A stretch of DNA of 64,000 nucleotides, taken from Nitrospira sp. (GTDB taxonomy: Bacteria > Nitrospirota > Nitrospiria > Nitrospirales > Nitrospiraceae). The stretch covers positions 62,001 through 126,000 of the forward strand of contig JACOEM010000009.1 in NCBI GenBank assembly GCA_024998565.1, given 5' to 3'. The translations under genes and the position numbers were made by a program. The notes under the pieces were generated by a model. That model did not search any database. It was given only the letters and a program-made list of their open reading frames with translations, and was not told the DNA's origin. Below, in pieces: positions 4,505-13,999 of this stretch (positions within the stretch are counted from its first letter, which is position 1; every line of letters starts with the position of its first letter).

Positions 4505-5089
4505 ATGCGCAGGAATCGTGAGCGGTATGTGTTCGGTGGGGCCCTGGTGCTGGCTCTGGCAATGAGTTTGACCCCTGCCTTCTCTCAGGCTGCCGAGTGG
4601 GTGCATGAGGGGATGGCCGAAGAGGGGAAAGTTACGATGGGTTTTCGCGTGGGACCGAGCTTTACCACGCAAAGCGCCGGTGTCTCGACGGCCGGTCCGG
4701 CGCTGAACTTTCAAGGCATGTACGGACTGAACAAATGGTTCCGTCTCGGGATGATGTTGGAATGGGAGAATCACGGAATCGATGGGCCGCGAAACGGGTC
4801 GCTCAATACCATTACGCTGCTGCCGGTGAACCTGGAGTATCGTCCGGGGCACTTCGGCAACTTCATCCCCTATTTCACGACCGGTCTGGGCGTGAACATC
4901 AATACGAAGGATGTGAAAGATACGTTCGCCTGGCGGATCGGCGGCGGTATCGACTATGCCTTGACCAATCTGGTTCAGGGCGCGCCGAAAGGCCTGATGC
5001 TGAATATGGAAGCGGCCTGGAAGCGTAACCATCCCGACAGTGACGGGTCTACCATGGGCCTGCTCTTCGGTGTACGCCATACCTTCTAG
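4505..5089 (+). CDS. Small outer-membrane beta-barrel protein (OmpA-like/OmpW-like fold)
   Basis: This 194-residue protein has a signal peptide (YVFGGALVLALAMSLTPAFSQAA) and alternating amphipathic strands typical of an 8-stranded barrel: GKVTMGFRVGPSFTT, NKWFRLGMMLEWE, ITLLPVNLEYRPG, IPYFTTGLGVNINT, FAWRIGGGIDYAL, MLNMEAAWKRNH. It ends in GLLFGVRHTF, with the terminal aromatic residue recognised by the Bam machinery. Ribosome site AGGAGG is five bases before the ATG. It is related in layout to the barrel gene at 27114-27755 (same KWF/YFRFG, IPYxxxGLG and FAxRIxGGxD blocks), so the two are probable paralogues. The transported or bound ligand is unknown. Confidence 0.85.
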   Translation: MRRNRERYVFGGALVLALAMSLTPAFSQAAEWVHEGMAEEGKVTMGFRVGPSFTTQSAGVSTAGPALNFQGMYGLNKWFRLGMMLEWENHGIDGPRNGSLNTITLLPVNLEYRPGHFGNFIPYFTTGLGVNINTKDVKDTFAWRIGGGIDYALTNLVQGAPKGLMLNMEAAWKRNHPDSDGSTMGLLFGVRHTF

Positions 5090-5636
5090 CAGGATACGGT
5101 AAGAATTCCGCCGCCGGCGTGCTCGACACCCGTGAACCATGAAGCGTATCTCGTCGGGGTCAGCGCGTATGGTTGGTGGCGTATAGCTGAGAGTAAAGAG
5201 GCCCACTCTCACGGTCTTGCCATGCGCTATGAGCTCTATGCCGTAAGCTCTTTTCTACGGACGCGGGTACGGTCTTTTTGCGCATCCTGCGGGTGATTCT
5301 GGCACCGACACCGAGCACGAGTGAATCATCACGCAACAATCGAGGGGTTCAGCAGCCTGCTGATCCCGACTTCGAACGTTCCAACGAGTCCCCGAACGGG
5401 AATGCCGCCAAACCCGGGCAGTCAGTAGCGGTTACGCCGTTGCTGGCTGCTCCTTCAGCCCCGTGTTCGAGCGATCACCTCTGCCGGGCCTGCAGGCCGC
5501 CGATGACCCTGCTCACTCTTCGCTGAAATTGCTGCTGATCATCTTCTGAGGGGTGGGAGCATGGCCCCGGAGGATTGTGCTCTGTTCTGCGTGAGCCGAG
5601 GGCCGAGGGGTAGGCACGGCTGGAATCTGCTCGCGA
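5090..5636. other. Intergenic region with one dispersed-repeat copy
   Basis: I find no supportable gene in this 547-base gap between convergent genes. The segment 5131-5200 carries a copy of the dispersed motif CGTGAA-N4-GAAGCGTATCTCGT followed by TATGGTTG and GGCGTATAGC; a related copy lies at 11781-11825. Reading frames here have no signal, domain or ribosome site. Confidence 0.5.
5131..5177 (+). repeat. Dispersed intergenic repeat, copy A
   Basis: This stretch reads CGTGAACCATGAAGCGTATC then TCGTCGGGGTCAGCGCGTATGG, with TTGG following. The order CGTGAA / GAA(A or G)CGTAT(C or T)TCGT / CGTATGG(C or T)TG is shared with the minus strand of 11781-11825. The first half is shared with 19301-19346. 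It is a short, imperfectly conserved intergenic element of unknown role. Confidence 0.45.
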
Positions 5637-6594: not shown

Positions 6595-7278
6595 ATGAGC
6601 AAGAAGGAAATCGATGCAGCGCGGCGACTGATGAGCCTGATGTTCAAGGCGCATCCTTGGCACGGAGTGTCCATGGGCGACCATGCGCCTGACCTGGTGA
6701 CGGCCTATATCGAAATTGTGCCGACCGATACGGTGAAATACGAAGTGGACAAGGCCAGCGGGTTCCTCAAGGTCGACCGTCCGCAGCGGTTTTCCAACTA
6801 TTGTCCGTCCTATTACGGGCTGATCCCGCAAACCTATTGCGGCGAGCGCGTGGCGAAACTGTTCGGCGCGCGGGCGGGCCGGCCGGACATGATCGGCGAC
6901 GGCGATCCCCTTGATATCTGTGTGTTGACGGAGAAGACGATTCCGCACAGCGACATTCTGTTGACGGCCCGACCCATCGGCGGATTCAGCATGGCGGACG
7001 GCGGCGAGGCGGACGACAAGATCATCGCGGTCATGCGGGACGACGCCGTCTACGGGTCGTTTACCGATCTCAAAGATTGCCCGACGACGCTCCTGGATCG
7101 GCTGCACCACTATTTCCTGACGTACAAACACGCGCCGGGATCGACGCAGCACAAGGTCGAGATTACGAGCATGTATGGCCGGGACGAGGCCATGAAAGTC
7201 ATTCACGCCAGTCATGACGACTACAAGCAGAAATTCCCTGAGTTGGAATTCATGTGGCCCGCCAGCATGAACAGCTAG
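6595..7278 (+). CDS. ppa: Inorganic pyrophosphatase, family I
   Basis: Hydrolyses pyrophosphate to two phosphates in the cytoplasm, pulling biosynthetic reactions forward. The metal-binding signature is intact: DGDPLDICVLTE at about residues 101-112, preceded by KYEVDKASGFLKVDR and YCPSYYGLIPQTYCG and followed by DDKIIAV and the DCP/LDRLHHYFLTYK segment. At 227 residues it is longer than the ~175-residue E. coli enzyme and resembles the longer bacterial group with an N-terminal extension (MSKKEIDAARRLMSLMFKAHPWHGV). Its start has a purine-rich GGGGGAAAG upstream. It sits 29 bases before an RNA helicase gene, so they may be cotranscribed. Confidence 0.95.
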   Translation: MSKKEIDAARRLMSLMFKAHPWHGVSMGDHAPDLVTAYIEIVPTDTVKYEVDKASGFLKVDRPQRFSNYCPSYYGLIPQTYCGERVAKLFGARAGRPDMIGDGDPLDICVLTEKTIPHSDILLTARPIGGFSMADGGEADDKIIAVMRDDAVYGSFTDLKDCPTTLLDRLHHYFLTYKHAPGSTQHKVEITSMYGRDEAMKVIHASHDDYKQKFPELEFMWPASMNS

Positions 7279-7307
7279 TACTACCAAGAAAGGTTTATCC
7301 CCCCCTG

Positions 7308-9038
7308 ATGAAACACACCACGACGCATTCGCAAACAGAGCCGGCAGCCAAAGGTTTTTCTCCCGGTTTTGCCGCGCTCGGATTAGAAGCCTCGCTGTTG
7401 ACCACCCTGGAGGCCCTGGGCTACGAAGAGCCCACCCCGATTCAGCGTGAAGCCATTCCTCCGCTTCTGGAGGGGCGCGACTTGCTGGGGCAGGCCGCCA
7501 CGGGAACCGGAAAAACAGCGGCGTTTGCGTTGCCGCTCCTGCAGCGGATCGCCCACGGGCCACGGCAGCGGCCCACGGCCTTGGTGTTGGTGCCGACCCG
7601 TGAACTGGCCGTGCAGGTGAGCGAGGCGGTGCAGCGGTACGGGAAAGAACTGCGGATCGGTGTGCTGGCTTTGTACGGCGGCCAAGCGATGGGGCCGCAA
7701 CTGCAGGCGCTCAGACGCGGGGTGGAAGTCATTGTTGCGACGCCGGGCCGGGCCCTGGATCACCTTCGCCGCAAGACCTTGAAGCTGGCCGATCTTCAAG
7801 TGGTGGTGCTCGATGAGGCGGACGAAATGCTCGACATGGGCTTCGCCGACGACCTCGATGCCATTCTCGAACAGACTCCGGCGACCAAGCAGACTGCGTT
7901 GTTCTCGGCGACCATGCCGCCGCGGATTGCGTCCATCGCTCGCCGGCATTTGAAGAATCCGGTGGATGTGACGATTGCCCGTGAGCCGGTGAAGGCAGGC
8001 GCCGCGCCGCGCGTGCAGCAGACCGCTTATGTGGTGGCGCGACAGCATAAGGTGTCTGCGCTGGCCCGCGTGTTGGATATTGCGACGCCCAAGTCGGCGC
8101 TCGTGTTCTGCCGGACCCGGTTGGAAGTGGATGAGGTGACGGCAGCGTTGAACGGGCGCGGGTATCGGGCCGAGGCGATCCATGGCGGCATGAGCCAGGT
8201 GCAGCGGGATCGCGTGATGCAGGCGTTTCGCTCAGGACAAACCGAACTCCTCGTGGCGACCGACGTGGCCGCGCGCGGGTTGGATATTCCATCCGTTTCC
8301 CACGTGATTAATTACGACCTGCCCTCGTCCTTGGAAGTCTATGTCCATCGGATCGGGCGAACGGGCCGGGCGGGTCGCGAAGGTGCGGCCATGACCATTA
8401 TCGAGCCGCGTGAACAGCGATTGTTGCGCGCGGTCGAACAGCATACCAAAGCGAAAATTACGGTCGCTGCGGTGCCATCCCTGGGTGATCTGCTGGCCAA
8501 ACGGCTGGAGCGGACCAAGGCCTCCATCCAGGAAACCCTGGAGGCCGGCGAGCTCGAAGATTTTCGCCGTGTCGTGGAAGCGCTGTCGGCGTCGGCAGAG
8601 CCGGCGGATATCGCGGCGGCGGCCATCAAGCTGGTCTACCGGTCCCATGGCGGTGAACGGGCGGAAGAAGAAATCCCGGCAGTCTCGACCAGGCCGCCGG
8701 AGCCCTATCGGTCGTCGCGTCCTTCGTACGGCTCCGCTCCTCAACAGGGAGATCGCGCGCGTGCGCCTCGTGGTGGCCCTGGTCGCGGTGGTCGGGCGGC
8801 CGGAACCGTGCGGGTCTATGTCGGGGCCGGGCGGGCGGCAGGGATCAGACCCGGGGATCTTGTCGGTGCCATTGCCAATGAGGCTGGTGTGCCGTCGCGC
8901 ATGATCGGGGCGATCGAAGTCGAGGAGCGATTCTCTCTGGTGGATGTGCAGGAAGAGGCGGCCCGGCAGATTATCGAGGCGCTCGGACGGACGCGCATCA
9001 AGGGCCAAAAAGTCGCCGTGAGATTGTTCAGAGATTAG
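7308..9038 (+). CDS. DEAD-box ATP-dependent RNA helicase with DbpA-type C-terminal RNA-binding domain
   Basis: This 576-residue SF2 RNA helicase shows the motifs in order: Q motif (GYEEPTPIQREAIPPLL), motif I ATGTGKTAAF, PTRELAVQ, TPGR, DEAD in VVLDEADEMLDMGF, SAT in LFSATMPP, then TDVAARGLDIP and HRIGRTGRAG. After a linker and an RG-rich patch (RARAPRGGPGRGGRAAG) comes a DbpA/CsdA-type RNA-binding domain (RVYVGAGRAAGIRPGDLVGA ... VAVRLF). It probably acts in ribosome assembly or RNA turnover, as DeaD/CshA/DbpA proteins do. ATG at 7308 lies 15 bases after an AAGAAAGG; the N-terminus before the Q motif is short and unconserved. Confidence 0.94.
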   Translation: MKHTTTHSQTEPAAKGFSPGFAALGLEASLLTTLEALGYEEPTPIQREAIPPLLEGRDLLGQAATGTGKTAAFALPLLQRIAHGPRQRPTALVLVPTRELAVQVSEAVQRYGKELRIGVLALYGGQAMGPQLQALRRGVEVIVATPGRALDHLRRKTLKLADLQVVVLDEADEMLDMGFADDLDAILEQTPATKQTALFSATMPPRIASIARRHLKNPVDVTIAREPVKAGAAPRVQQTAYVVARQHKVSALARVLDIATPKSALVFCRTRLEVDEVTAALNGRGYRAEAIHGGMSQVQRDRVMQAFRSGQTELLVATDVAARGLDIPSVSHVINYDLPSSLEVYVHRIGRTGRAGREGAAMTIIEPREQRLLRAVEQHTKAKITVAAVPSLGDLLAKRLERTKASIQETLEAGELEDFRRVVEALSASAEPADIAAAAIKLVYRSHGGERAEEEIPAVSTRPPEPYRSSRPSYGSAPQQGDRARAPRGGPGRGGRAAGTVRVYVGAGRAAGIRPGDLVGAIANEAGVPSRMIGAIEVEERFSLVDVQEEAARQIIEALGRTRIKGQKVAVRLFRD

Positions 9039-9486: not shown

Positions 9487-11049
9487 ATGGCGGTGACGCT
9501 CGCATCATGGAAAGCCGTGCTGCGGGACTGGCAGACGAGGGCGGTCGCCGATGTGTTGGCGCAGCCGCGCGAGGACTACCTCGTCACCGCGACACCTGCG
9601 GCCGGAAAAACCCGCTTCGCGCTCCGGATCGCGCATCAATATCTGGCCGACCGGGCTGCGAGTCGTGTGCTGGTGATCTGCCCGACGAACCATCTTCGAA
9701 CGCAGTGGGCCTCGGCCGCGGGGCAGGTCGGTATCCAACTCGATCCGGCGCTCTCGAATGAGCAGGCCTGCGAGGCACGCGACTATCACGGCGCGGTCGT
9801 GACCTATCAGCAGGTCTGTCTGGCACCGGAAGTATTCCGGCGCGCCTGCCGCAGCCGTAAGACGCTGGTCATCCTCGATGAGTTGCACCATGCCGGTGAC
9901 GGCAAGGATTGGGGCAAGGCGCTGCGCGAGTCCTTCGGCGAGGCGGTTTTTCGTCTGGCCCTGTCCGGCACTCCCTTCCGCTCGGACAACAACCCGATTC
10001 CCTTTGTGCGATATGAGCAGGGCGAGAGCCAGGCGGATTTCACCTATGGGTATTCGCATTCGATTCGTGACGGGGTCTGTCGCCCGATTCTGTTTCCGAG
10101 TTACGAAGGCGAACTGACCTGGCTGTCGGACGGGCGCGAGCATCGGGCTACCTTCGAAGACGGCTTAACCTTCGAGCGCCAGCGGGAACGGCTCAAGACC
10201 GCGTTGCTCCAGGAGACATGGCTGGGCCCTGTCTTGAGCGATGCCCATGCGGAGTTACAGCGCTTGCGGAAGCAGGAGCAGGCGGATGCGGGCGGGTTGA
10301 TCGTGACCATGAACCAGGACCATGCCCGGCAGGTGGCGGATCTGGTGTTGAAGCTTACGGGTACGCGCGCGCTGGTGGCGGTATCCGACGATCCATCCGC
10401 CTCGAAGACCATCGAGACCTTTGCGCATCACAAGCAGCAGCAGTGGCTGGTGGCGGTGAATATGGTGAGCGAAGGCGTCGATATTCCTCGCCTGCGGGTC
10501 GGTGTGTATGCGACCAACGTGTTGACCGAGATGTATTTCCGCCAGGTCGTCGGACGGTTCGTGCGGATGCAGGAGAAGGTGCCGAAACCGCAACGGGCCT
10601 GGCTCTATCTGCCGAAGGATGCGACGCTGGTCCATTATGCCAAACGCATCAAGGTCGAGCGCGATCACGTCCTCGAAGAGATCATGCCGTCCGTGCAGCG
10701 GACATTGTTCGGCACGGCGGCGACGTCGCTGAAGGAATACATTCCGCTCAACGGCGTGGCCAGGCTGGATGCCTTGATCGGCGCGGATGAGGGGGACCCG
10801 GCGGGTGAAGGCAAGGGGCAGCCGGAACCGGCGGTCGCGTTGCATGACCAGAAGAACGCCTTGCGGGACAAACATCGCTCTCTGGTCGGGGCGGTGGCGC
10901 GGAAATGCGGGATGGATCATCGGCAGCTCAATGCGGAGTTGATCAAGCGGACAGGCGGCCGGGTCGATCAGGCGACCATCCCGCAATTGGAGCGGCGGAT
11001 CGCTCTGCTGGAAAAGTGGCGTGATTCCGGCTTCGACAAGAAGCGCTGA
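9487..11049 (+). CDS. SF2 DEAD/DEAH-type helicase (RadD/XPB-like), DNA-directed
   Basis: This 520-residue superfamily 2 protein has motif I ATPAAGKTRFA (near residue 35), Ia VICPTNHLRTQW, a DELHH motif II (VILDELHHAGDGK), motif III LSGTPFRSD, a second RecA domain with GLIVTMNQDHARQVADL, motif V VAVNMVSEGVDIPRL and motif VI QVVGRFVRMQ. The layout matches bacterial and phage RadD/ComF-like SF2 helicases. The C-terminal 120 residues (VRHKH-type basic helix RDKHRSLVGAVARKCGMDHR, then TIPQLERRIALLEKW) may bind nucleic acid. Substrate is unknown; repair or plasmid/phage functions are typical. It is followed 81 bases later by the AAA+-like gene on the same strand. Confidence 0.85.
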   Translation: MAVTLASWKAVLRDWQTRAVADVLAQPREDYLVTATPAAGKTRFALRIAHQYLADRAASRVLVICPTNHLRTQWASAAGQVGIQLDPALSNEQACEARDYHGAVVTYQQVCLAPEVFRRACRSRKTLVILDELHHAGDGKDWGKALRESFGEAVFRLALSGTPFRSDNNPIPFVRYEQGESQADFTYGYSHSIRDGVCRPILFPSYEGELTWLSDGREHRATFEDGLTFERQRERLKTALLQETWLGPVLSDAHAELQRLRKQEQADAGGLIVTMNQDHARQVADLVLKLTGTRALVAVSDDPSASKTIETFAHHKQQQWLVAVNMVSEGVDIPRLRVGVYATNVLTEMYFRQVVGRFVRMQEKVPKPQRAWLYLPKDATLVHYAKRIKVERDHVLEEIMPSVQRTLFGTAATSLKEYIPLNGVARLDALIGADEGDPAGEGKGQPEPAVALHDQKNALRDKHRSLVGAVARKCGMDHRQLNAELIKRTGGRVDQATIPQLERRIALLEKWRDSGFDKKR

Positions 11050-11130: not shown

Positions 11131-11676
11131 ATGGCTGGGAAACAAGCGGCGCGCCGCACAAGTGCGGTCGCCAAGAAGATCACGAAGCAGGCGGTGAAGA
11201 AAACGGGAACGAAGAAAGCGGCGCCTGCGCGCCGCGCACAGACGCGTCGCGCCAAGCGGCCGTCCGTGGCGGTGGTGGTGCTGTCCGGCTCCACTCCGCT
11301 TCGCCGGAACAAAGCGGCGGAGTTGGTGGCGGAAGAACTGCAATTGGATCTGGCGAAGGTGAATCTCTCCTCAGTGGTCAGCCGACAGGTCGGCGAGACG
11401 GAGAAGAACATCAACCGGGTGTTCGATGAGGCGGAACGGAGCGGATCGATTCTCTTCTTCGACGGCGCGGATGCGCTGTTCGGCACGGGCCGGGCGGGCG
11501 CCAGTCACTCGACCGCTGCCGGGGCGGCCCATCTGCTACAACGCATCGAGGACCATACCGGCCTCGTCATTCTCACGACCAACGGGAAAAGCCGGATCGA
11601 TCAAGCCTTGTCGCGGCAAGCGAAGGTGTCTGTGATGGTGGGCATCAAGAAGAAGCCAAAGAAGAAGACGGCCTGA
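11131..11676 (+). CDS. AAA+ ATPase-like pseudoenzyme with a histone-H1-like basic tail
   Basis: This 181-residue protein begins with about 43 residues carrying 16 Lys/Arg and no acidic residue (KQAARRTSAVAKKITKQAVK...), like bacterial H1/HU-tail proteins. It continues as an AAA+ domain: KAAELVAEELQLDLAKVNLS, VVSRQVGETEKNINRVFDEA, ILFFDGADALFGTG, LLQRIEDHTGLVILTTN. In canonical relatives the first block is GPPGTGKT and the Walker B is DEAD. Here the P-loop reads SGSTPLRRN and the catalytic Glu is Gly (DGAD), so ATP hydrolysis is unlikely. The arginine-finger/lid region is truncated and a second basic tail (KKKPKKKT) ends it. GAGAGGAAGG precedes the ATG. Confidence 0.85.
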   Translation: MAGKQAARRTSAVAKKITKQAVKKTGTKKAAPARRAQTRRAKRPSVAVVVLSGSTPLRRNKAAELVAEELQLDLAKVNLSSVVSRQVGETEKNINRVFDEAERSGSILFFDGADALFGTGRAGASHSTAAGAAHLLQRIEDHTGLVILTTNGKSRIDQALSRQAKVSVMVGIKKKPKKKTA

Positions 11677-12370: not shown

Positions 12371-13999
12371 TTATTGTGCCGTGGCCTGCTCGACTTCTTC
12401 CCGCAATAGAAACTTGATCGACGGGTTCGATTTGATGCAATAGGCCAGCAGGTGTTCGGTAGTGAACAGCATCACGCCGCGGCCCTGCTGATCGACGAGC
12501 CGGATGGTGTCGGACGGCCAATAGACGGCCGAAATCGTCGCGGGATCGCCGACAATCCAGCGGGCCAGCGCATGGGGCAGGCGCTCCACGGATGTTTTCA
12601 CCCCGTACTCGTTCTCCAGCCGCGACATGACGACATCGAACTGCAATTCACCCACCGCAGCCAATACCGGTTCGCGACGCACGTGGTCCGGTGAATAAAA
12701 GATCTGCATGACCCCTTCTTCTTCCAGCTGCTTGAGCCCCTTCTGAAACTGTTTGTGCTTTGAAATATCTTGTGTGCGCAAGAGGCCGAAACATTCCGGC
12801 GGAAAGTGCGGAATGGGATCGAAGGTCAGTGCCGGATCCGAGGTCAGGGTATCTCCGATGGTGAACAGCCCGGGGTTCACCAACCCGACGACATCGCCGG
12901 GGTAGGCCTCGTCGATCGTTTCGCGGTCGCGACCGAACAGGCGATGGGGGCGTGTCATCCGGATCTTTCGGCCCAGGCGCGCATGATGAACCATCATGTC
13001 CTTTTCGAAGCGCCCGGAGCAGATGCGGAGGAAGGCCATGCGGTCGCGATGCTGCGGATCCATGTTCGCCTGAATCTTGAACACGAAGCCGGAGAACGCT
13101 TCGTCGGTCGGTTGAATCAGTCCCTGCGCCGTCTGGCGTGGCCCGGGAGGCGGCGCGAGCTTGGTGAATGCATCCAGGAACGGCCCGACGCCGAAGTTGG
13201 TCAACGCGCTGCCGAAGAAGACCGGCGTCAATTCACCTGCGAGGAACCGGTCGCGATCGAATGACGTGCCCGCGCCTGTCAACAGCCCGATCTCTTCCTG
13301 GAGCGGCCCGTAGGCGTCGCCAAGGGTTTCCGCCAGTTTCGGGTTCGGAAAGGCCTCGACCGTCATCGGGGCGCGGCGTTGATTGTGCGCCGTGCGCTGG
13401 AAGAACAGCACCTGCCGGTTCTGAAAATCGTAGACCCCTTGAAAGCCGGACCCTTCGCCGATCGGCCAGTTGAAGGGCACCGCCGTCATTCCCAGGGTTC
13501 GTTCGATTTCGTCCAGCAGGTCGAACGGATGGCGGCCCGGCTGGTCCATCTTGTTGATGAAGGTCAGGATCGGGATGCCGCGCTTACGGCAGACGGCAAA
13601 GAGTTTCTTGGTCTGCGGCTCGATACCCTTGGCGCCGTCCAGCACCATGACGGCGCTGTCCACGGCCATAAGTGTGCGGTACGTGTCTTCGCTGAAGTCC
13701 TGGTGGCCTGGCGTATCCAGCAGGTTGACCCGCGCGCCCAGATAGTCGAACTGCAACATGGTGGATGTGATCGAAATACCGCGCGCCTGCTCCAATTCCA
13801 TCCAGTCGGACTTGGCCTGCCGTTGAGTAGAACGCGCCTGCACCGCGCCGGCCAGGTGGACGGCTCCTGCGTACAACAACAGTTTTTCCGTCAACGTGGT
13901 TTTTCCGGCGTCCGGATGGGAAATGATCGCAAACGTGCGCCGTCGCAGCACTTCTCGCCGCAGTTCATCGGCCGCGGATTTCTCAACCGGCAGGGACAT
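12371..13999 (-). CDS. prfC: Peptide chain release factor 3 (RF3)
   Basis: GTPase that recycles RF1/RF2 from the ribosome after termination. It has 542 residues, about the family length (529 in E. coli). G motifs: G1 SHPDAGKTTLTEKLL, G2 RGISITSTMLQFDY, G3 LLDTPGHQDFSEDTYRTL, G4 FINKMDQPGRHPFDLLDEIE. The GARVNLLDTPGHQDF block and the KTSVERLPHALARWI C-terminal segment distinguish RF3 from EF-G and TypA. The QFQKGLKQLEEEGVMQIF block is also RF3-specific. It is monocistronic by spacing, with a divergent stretch without genes upstream. Confidence 0.97.
   Translation of the reverse strand: MSLPVEKSAADELRREVLRRRTFAIISHPDAGKTTLTEKLLLYAGAVHLAGAVQARSTQRQAKSDWMELEQARGISITSTMLQFDYLGARVNLLDTPGHQDFSEDTYRTLMAVDSAVMVLDGAKGIEPQTKKLFAVCRKRGIPILTFINKMDQPGRHPFDLLDEIERTLGMTAVPFNWPIGEGSGFQGVYDFQNRQVLFFQRTAHNQRRAPMTVEAFPNPKLAETLGDAYGPLQEEIGLLTGAGTSFDRDRFLAGELTPVFFGSALTNFGVGPFLDAFTKLAPPPGPRQTAQGLIQPTDEAFSGFVFKIQANMDPQHRDRMAFLRICSGRFEKDMMVHHARLGRKIRMTRPHRLFGRDRETIDEAYPGDVVGLVNPGLFTIGDTLTSDPALTFDPIPHFPPECFGLLRTQDISKHKQFQKGLKQLEEEGVMQIFYSPDHVRREPVLAAVGELQFDVVMSRLENEYGVKTSVERLPHALARWIVGDPATISAVYWPSDTIRLVDQQGRGVMLFTTEHLLAYCIKSNPSIKFLLREEVEQATAQ

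Follow-up and report, generated by a model that had tools for sequence, protein, structure and literature searches.

The window analysed here is a stretch of 64,000 nucleotides from Nitrospira sp. (G000:C9:62001-126000). It contains a short gene, here referred to as gene A, which encodes an AAA+ domain between two basic tails (Table 1). A ribosome-binding-like GAGAGGAAGG lies close 5' of its ATG. The product matches the Pfam AAA family (PF00004) over residues 62-169 with an E value of 1.9e-16 and 61.1 bits (cut-off 21.2), i.e., above the gathering score, which places it in the AAA family by sequence match. Its best sequence relatives in the PDB are Rix7, Afg2, and p97/Cdc48. An earlier note on this DNA had described an AAA+ pseudoenzyme with an altered P-loop, an altered Walker B motif, and a retained sensor-1 Asn, flanked by histone-H1-like tails; the PF00004 match and the alignment bear this out, as do the C-terminal Lys tract and the composition of residues 1-43, the segment counted in that note (also 16 Lys/Arg and no Asp/Glu).

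Table 1. Positions of gene A, its sequence features, and neighbouring genes in the window.
Feature	Position	Strand	Description
Gene A	11131..11676	+	181-aa ORF, ATG start; lidless, by alignment nucleotide-free AAA+ core between basic tails
N-terminal basic tail	11131..11265	+	Residues 1-45; 16 K/R, 0 D/E; predicted disordered, pLDDT <50 for residues 1-46
Former P-loop	11287..11313	+	Residues 53-61, GSTPLRRNK; conserved LRRxK motif in its place
Pore-loop-1/alpha-2 block	11380..11409	+	SRQVGETEKN; aromatic lost (Q), GETEKN retained (alignment)
Walker B strand	11455..11484	+	FFDGADALFG; DG in place of DE (alignment, tree)
Pore-loop-2 and next helix region	11485..11541	+	Residues 119-137, degenerate (alignment)
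Sensor-1 Asn151	11581..11583	+	Retained; N in 22/24 A
Arginine-finger region	11614..11625	+	RQAK; finger position is Gln163
C-terminal basic tail	11644..11673	+	IKKKPKKKTA (tail composition count)
SF2 helicase (ResIII/DEAD)	9487..11049	+	Probable operon partner of A
DEAD-box gene	7254-9038		Neighbour of A (named by eye)
Pyrophosphatase-like gene	6595-7278		Three genes upstream of A (named by eye)
RF3-like gene	12371-13999		Neighbour of A (named by eye)

At the P-loop position, A reads GSTPLRRN where the long relative encoded in the same genome has GESGTGKT. The Walker A pattern GxxxxGK[ST] was found in none of the aligned rows of A (0/24), its paralogue B (0/25), or the homologues from the sister genus g21 (0/7). 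The replacement motif is identical in 21 of the 24 A rows, the other three having a single change, and pI ranges from 10.6 to 11.4 across the 24 proteins. Gene A has no eCIS-type N-terminal domain before its AAA module, the tail being all that precedes it.

The SF2 helicase gene that the earlier note saw directly ahead of A occupies this position, on the same strand, in all 24 genomes with A, at a gap of 60-87 bases. As promoter and terminator scans gave no excess over shuffled sequences, it is the spacing that speaks for co-transcription. The spacing between the DEAD-box and helicase genes, and between A and the RF3-like gene, differs among the 20 loci read, being a few hundred bases in some and kilobases in others. 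The helicase is also present where A is absent, namely in G027 and G004 (RF3 comes after it there) and in other genera, and is therefore independent of A. It scores above the cut-offs of the ResIII and DEAD models and far below those of the RadD and Dnd (DndI-like) restriction models. The identities IetA and CDC48 for A, and PbeA for the helicase, were rejected, as their NCBIfam scores are far below the cut-offs and PADLOC states none. Assuming a correct GTG start, the pyrophosphatase-like and DEAD-box frames share 7254-7278, and this pair lies ahead of the helicase-A pair in most loci read.

Distribution of A, its paralogue B, and more distant relatives

In the genus of Nitrospira defluvii (29 genomes, the window's own included), A is present in 24 genomes, among them the closed N. 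defluvii chromosome FP929003, and absent from five. Paralogue B, which the earlier note did not cover and which is 54-63% identical to A, is intact in 25 genomes, broken in one (G010), and absent from three. A or B thus occurs in 28 of the 29 genomes when the broken copy is counted, G004 having neither. The broken B (L034, G010:C933) occupies two frames of a draft genome that is itself fragmented, and the break may be a real loss or an assembly error. The B copy of the window's own genome (L004:6203-6778) precedes the window by a short distance and is some 12 kb away from A. Near it, L004:7541-7936 encodes a 131-aa protein that has no Pfam family above cut-off, and relatives of this protein were found near the homologue in five of seven g21 loci (5-kb flanks). 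Since relatives of the 131-aa protein occur near g21 homologues too, the position of B may be the older one, with A perhaps a copy that moved to the helicase. In the loci read, neither the B nor the g21 copies adjoin this SF2 helicase.

The family survey (175 genomes) revealed tailed proteins with a lost P-loop in 23 genomes of g21 and in one genome of genus g6 (G355), and in at least one g21 genome, G162, the phylum survey gave no match. All 23 g21 copies read GST[APV][LS]RRRK at the P-loop. Hence, to the earlier note's question of whether the loss is private to this gene or shared by a clade, the answer is that it is clade-wide (A 24/24, intact B 25/25, g21 23/23 copies read). In the G355 frame (L186, 191 aa), from a third genus, the replacement reads GSSAALRTK and the N-terminal tail is basic by eye. 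The N-terminal tails contain 9-20 Lys/Arg and 0-2 Asp/Glu in all 56 A, B, and g21 rows, which does not apply to nine other lidless relatives; tail Lys/Arg was counted in 14 of the 23 g21 copies and judged by eye in the other nine.

Further, more distant short lidless relatives emerged from the phylum survey (295 genomes). Nine such rows were compared (G277, G224, G241, G201, G297, G216, G050, G057, and G044), and by motif the P-loop is intact in G201 and G044 (GTGKT), near-intact in G057 (GTGKK), and changed or degenerate in six. G277 is the sole one with an LQRRK form, and its N-terminal tail is not acid-free. The G050 relative (L059, minus-strand frame 4805-5411, 0-based on that strand) has the degenerate P-loop GPRQKEKLE and a hydrophobic signal-like N-terminus, and is perhaps exported. 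Tails together with an intact P-loop, the combination that the earlier note named as its refutation, were sought among the genus, family, and phylum survey relatives read and found in none of them. Because the P-loop change is common to 24 A genomes, including the closed chromosome, sequencing error and private inactivation were ruled out.

A contig scan with one query gave at least 18 loci at 73-95% identity among the matches listed; 17 of these 18 are titled Nitrospira or Nitrospiraceae and one Pseudomonadota bacterium, and one weak Mycoplasmopsis match (28%) is also listed. A phage or plasmid origin was not supported: of the tblastn matches, which comprise two phage records (27-29% identity) and 176 plasmid records, not one extends over 80% of the query, and the best 25 of the 176 plasmid records show 42-46% identity over residues 47-168.

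Loss of the motor parts, fold, and selection

Motifs were scored in 56 aligned rows (24 A, 25 B, and the first seven g21) and compared with 11 longer relatives. The Arg finger, whose loss the earlier note had not recorded, is present in 0/56 of the former vs 11/11 of the latter. Its position is occupied by Gln in all 24 A, by Glu in 23 and Gln in two B, and by Gln in five, Lys in one, and Gly in one of the g21 rows. The pore-loop-1 aromatic, likewise not considered before, is retained in 7/7 g21, 5/24 A (four Tyr, one Phe), and 4/25 B. The Walker B position still has Glu in 7/7 g21, 25/25 B, and 6/24 A; the loss claimed for the window copy therefore stands, but it is a late change within A, requiring at least four changes on the tree. 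DE and KYVGETEKN persist in G001 and G007, which branch near the base of A. It appears that P-loop, finger, and lid were lost first and that the pore loops and Walker B followed later, mainly in A, an order read from the pattern of presence and absence across g21, B, and A rather than from a reconstruction.

In the tree, built without the remote row G036, without G355, and without the 16 g21 copies read later, a well-supported branch sets each group apart from the other rows (24 A, 25 B, and seven g21). Without the P-loop and Walker B columns, all rows with a lost P-loop (A, B, g21, and G277) lie on one side of a branch with support 90/83, which is suggestive, not decisive, of a single branch for these proteins. 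A sister-group relation of A and B is unsupported either way (AU p 0.256).

The fold modelling that the earlier note proposed was carried out with AlphaFold2 on 19 aligned sequences (the window copy and 18 loci from the contig scan). The model is of only moderate quality (mean pLDDT 59.5, pTM 0.52; 83 residues at 70-90, none at 90 or above, tails below 50). Its residues 45-173 align to residues 237-371 of p97 in N-D1 entries (Z 16.3, rmsd 2.6, 128 residues), a stretch that we take to be the D1 large subdomain only, and Foldseek with the model also returned AAA ATPases. The model thus indicates that A retains the AAA+ fold. Only 29-37 residues remain after sensor 1 in the 24 A proteins, ending in the basic tail, so that the C-terminal helical lid, a point not raised before, is absent. 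A, B, g21, and the other lidless rows (65/65) end 23-86 residues past the sensor-1 position.

All 24 A frames are open, and the core shows a median pairwise dN/dS of 0.070 and pN/pS of 0.132, vs a pN/pS of 0.585 and 0.538 in the N- and C-terminal tails; in 65 close A pairs, core dN/dS is 0.107. These ratios are rough, since synonymous sites are near saturation in many pairs. Recurrence in closed and draft genomes and the low core dN/dS place the features reported earlier beyond chance. The gene minimum of pN/pS (0.040) falls on the 12 codons of the former P-loop (G53-E64), where synonymous change is abundant: at the G, S/A, T, P, L, R, R, K, and A positions the codons differ by synonymous changes and the residues are near-constant. 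In B, the P-loop stretch is likewise the gene minimum (0.047), and in the seven g21 rows the values are weaker (0.254 for the core, 0.121 for the P-loop). The P-loop has been replaced, not decayed, its LRRxK being near-invariant, and constraint is strongest where the P-loop was lost, a pattern that a new function would predict and decay would not. In the tails, acidic variants make up 14/383 residue types, vs 10-14% expected from one-step changes (A N-terminal 7/160, A C-terminal 2/37, B N-terminal 3/94, B C-terminal 2/92), and in the cores 17/179 vs about 9% expected, the figures being residue types per column and not independent events. The tails evidently drift fast in sequence yet avoid acids, which points to a charge held by selection.

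Known systems and competing interpretations

The earlier note knew of no characterised protein with this combination of features. This holds in the searches made, and among open-licence papers none describes the A/B family by title or abstract start, but there is a precedent for a lidless, nucleotide-free AAA+ domain. The human Torsin cofactors LAP1 and LULL1 have an AAA+ fold without a C-terminal domain or Walker A, with an altered Walker B, and free of nucleotide (eLife 2014;3:e03239). Their 'AAA+ activator' domain is the closest described architecture to A, which by sequence and model is likewise a lidless AAA+ large-subdomain fold devoid of Walker A. LAP1 keeps the Arg finger and is membrane-anchored, unlike the finger-less, basic-tailed A, B, and g21 proteins, and by co-occurrence A and B need no partner AAA+, in contrast to these cofactors. 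Judging by sequence, the A/B family, which has no such finger, cannot activate a partner in the manner of LAP1.

The closest intact AAA relative in the window's own genome is an AAA ATPase of eCIS/Pvc15-Afp15 type (L005:4361-6292). It shares with A the GETEKN-like, DEADALFG, and related blocks, but unlike A it comprises 643 aa with an N-terminal WHD domain, GESGTGKT, DE, an RR finger, and a C-terminal part past the core. Pvc16_N and eCIS_core genes flank this copy, so the long relative is placed near the eCIS type, and the A family ranks among the AAA+ pseudoenzymes, related to such ATPases. An extracellular contractile injection locus spans 3063-9352 of L005 (G000:C7:184001-196000) and includes Pvc16_N, the AAA ATPase with WHD domain, eCIS_core, and a second similar-looking one. 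A itself is outside the eCIS locus, as it adjoins the helicase and RF3-like genes and the eCIS genes lie on another contig. The anti-phage ATPase IetA/IteA matches A in the AAA domain only (43.8 bits vs a cut-off of 510 in NCBIfam; also PADLOC). A has the long Lys-rich, acid-free tail that marks H1-like bacterial proteins such as AlgP of Pseudomonas aeruginosa. AlgP is reported to bind DNA; its tail consists of 154 aa of KPAA-type repeats, and no AAA+ core is described for it. ORC AAA+-like and clamp-loader delta-type subunits are AAA+ folds that do without nucleotide in DNA-handling machines, as parts of larger multi-domain rings.

The loss of the ATP site in A is well supported by the alignments, in which the Walker A site has evidently given way to a conserved G[SA]T[PA]LRRxK, the Arg finger and lid are gone, and acid-free Lys/Arg tails have been added. 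The earlier claim of an AAA+ fold with lost nucleotide chemistry accordingly agrees with the PF00004 match, the p97-like model, the missing Walker A, finger, and lid, and the selection on the core. Judged from these data, A forms a clade with B and the sister-genus homologues, made up of lidless, nucleotide-free AAA+ domains and present in the N. defluvii genus and in g21. From the tails and the gene order we infer nucleic-acid binding and a partnership with the helicase. The core would do no motor work and would act as a rigid protein-binding, perhaps self-assembling, module, which the disordered tails would anchor on DNA, RNA, or another polyanion, perhaps aided by the RR pair that occupies the old phosphate site. 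Presumably made from one transcript with the SF2 helicase, A would serve as its nucleic-acid tether or accessory, and B would perform a related job elsewhere. We see roughly even chances that this whole reading, a nucleotide-free AAA+ scaffold held by its tails on nucleic acid or another polyanion, with A beside the helicase, is correct. The tails could instead direct the proteins to ribosomes, polyphosphate, or membranes. A bolder version, in our view rather doubtful, is that the ATP pocket was converted into a fixed polyanion site that works without ATP (LRRxK, where helix 1 begins) and combined with histone-like tails, so that a motor domain of injection-system type became a bacterial chromatin or helicase-tether protein that was later duplicated, its motor parts being shed in order (P-loop, lid, and finger; then pore loops and Walker B).

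Other readings were weighed against the scaffold. A and B may be nucleotide-free regulatory subunits that insert into hexamers of the cell's own full AAA+ ATPase of injection-system type and so activate or poison it: the A core is 48% identical to the full-length eCIS-type ATPase of its genome over residues 50-166, and LAP1 is a lidless nucleotide-free domain that works as a regulator of Torsin. This is improbable in view of the loss of the finger in all 56 rows and of genomes that lack any AAA relative of greater length, i.e., G012, G014, and G015 (99-100% complete), which have A and B and no such relative at E<=1e-8, and 21 of the 23 g21 carriers at E<=1e-30; a role as partner subunit of the eCIS-type ATPase is weakened accordingly. 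G002, G017, and G028 (89, 94, and 66% complete), with A and/or B, also have no AAA relative of greater length at E<=1e-8. To about the same degree, it is improbable that the proteins organise polyphosphate or condensates in a role like that of AlgP, with tails that bind polyphosphate (and DNA) and a core that links granules. AlgP, which has an H1-like tail, is reported to be located on polyphosphate granules and needed for their even spacing, the tails of A and B are related in composition to the AlgP-type tail, and the pyrophosphatase-like gene lies nearby. Against this, the A and B tails are without regular KPAA repeats, inspection of the ORFs beside A or B by eye revealed no polyphosphate kinase, and none of the open-licence papers listed for Nitrospira polyphosphate and nucleoids treats A by title or abstract start.

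An RNA- or ribosome-linked accessory, with tails comparable to r-protein extensions and an SF2 protein acting on RNA, is likewise given a low probability. Tail composition does not distinguish DNA from RNA, and the neighbouring DEAD-box and RF3-like genes would suit such a role, but the best matches of the adjoining helicase are to DNA-acting families (ResIII; DndI-like and RadD far under their cut-offs), though DEAD is also above cut-off. That A and B are decaying remnants of an ATPase without present function is very improbable. The variability of Walker B, pore loop 1, and pore-loop-2 length within A, the broken B, and the genomes without A or B are what decay would predict; the constraint on the core and former P-loop, the open frames, and the maintained composition of the tails speak against it, and dN/dS together with the open frames rules out a pseudogene.

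In soils and water treatment, Nitrospira are among the main nitrite oxidisers; to our knowledge, little is known about their chromosome-organising proteins. A and B are small and have no evident membrane segment, so that binding of nucleotide, DNA, RNA, and polyphosphate is directly testable. The family offers a bacterial series that runs from intact AAA+ ATPases via lidless forms with an intact or failing P-loop to tailed proteins that are apparently nucleotide-free, and in which the order of loss can be read. It also shows that constraint on a pseudoenzyme can be tightest exactly where its P-loop was lost, and this speaks for a new function at that site.
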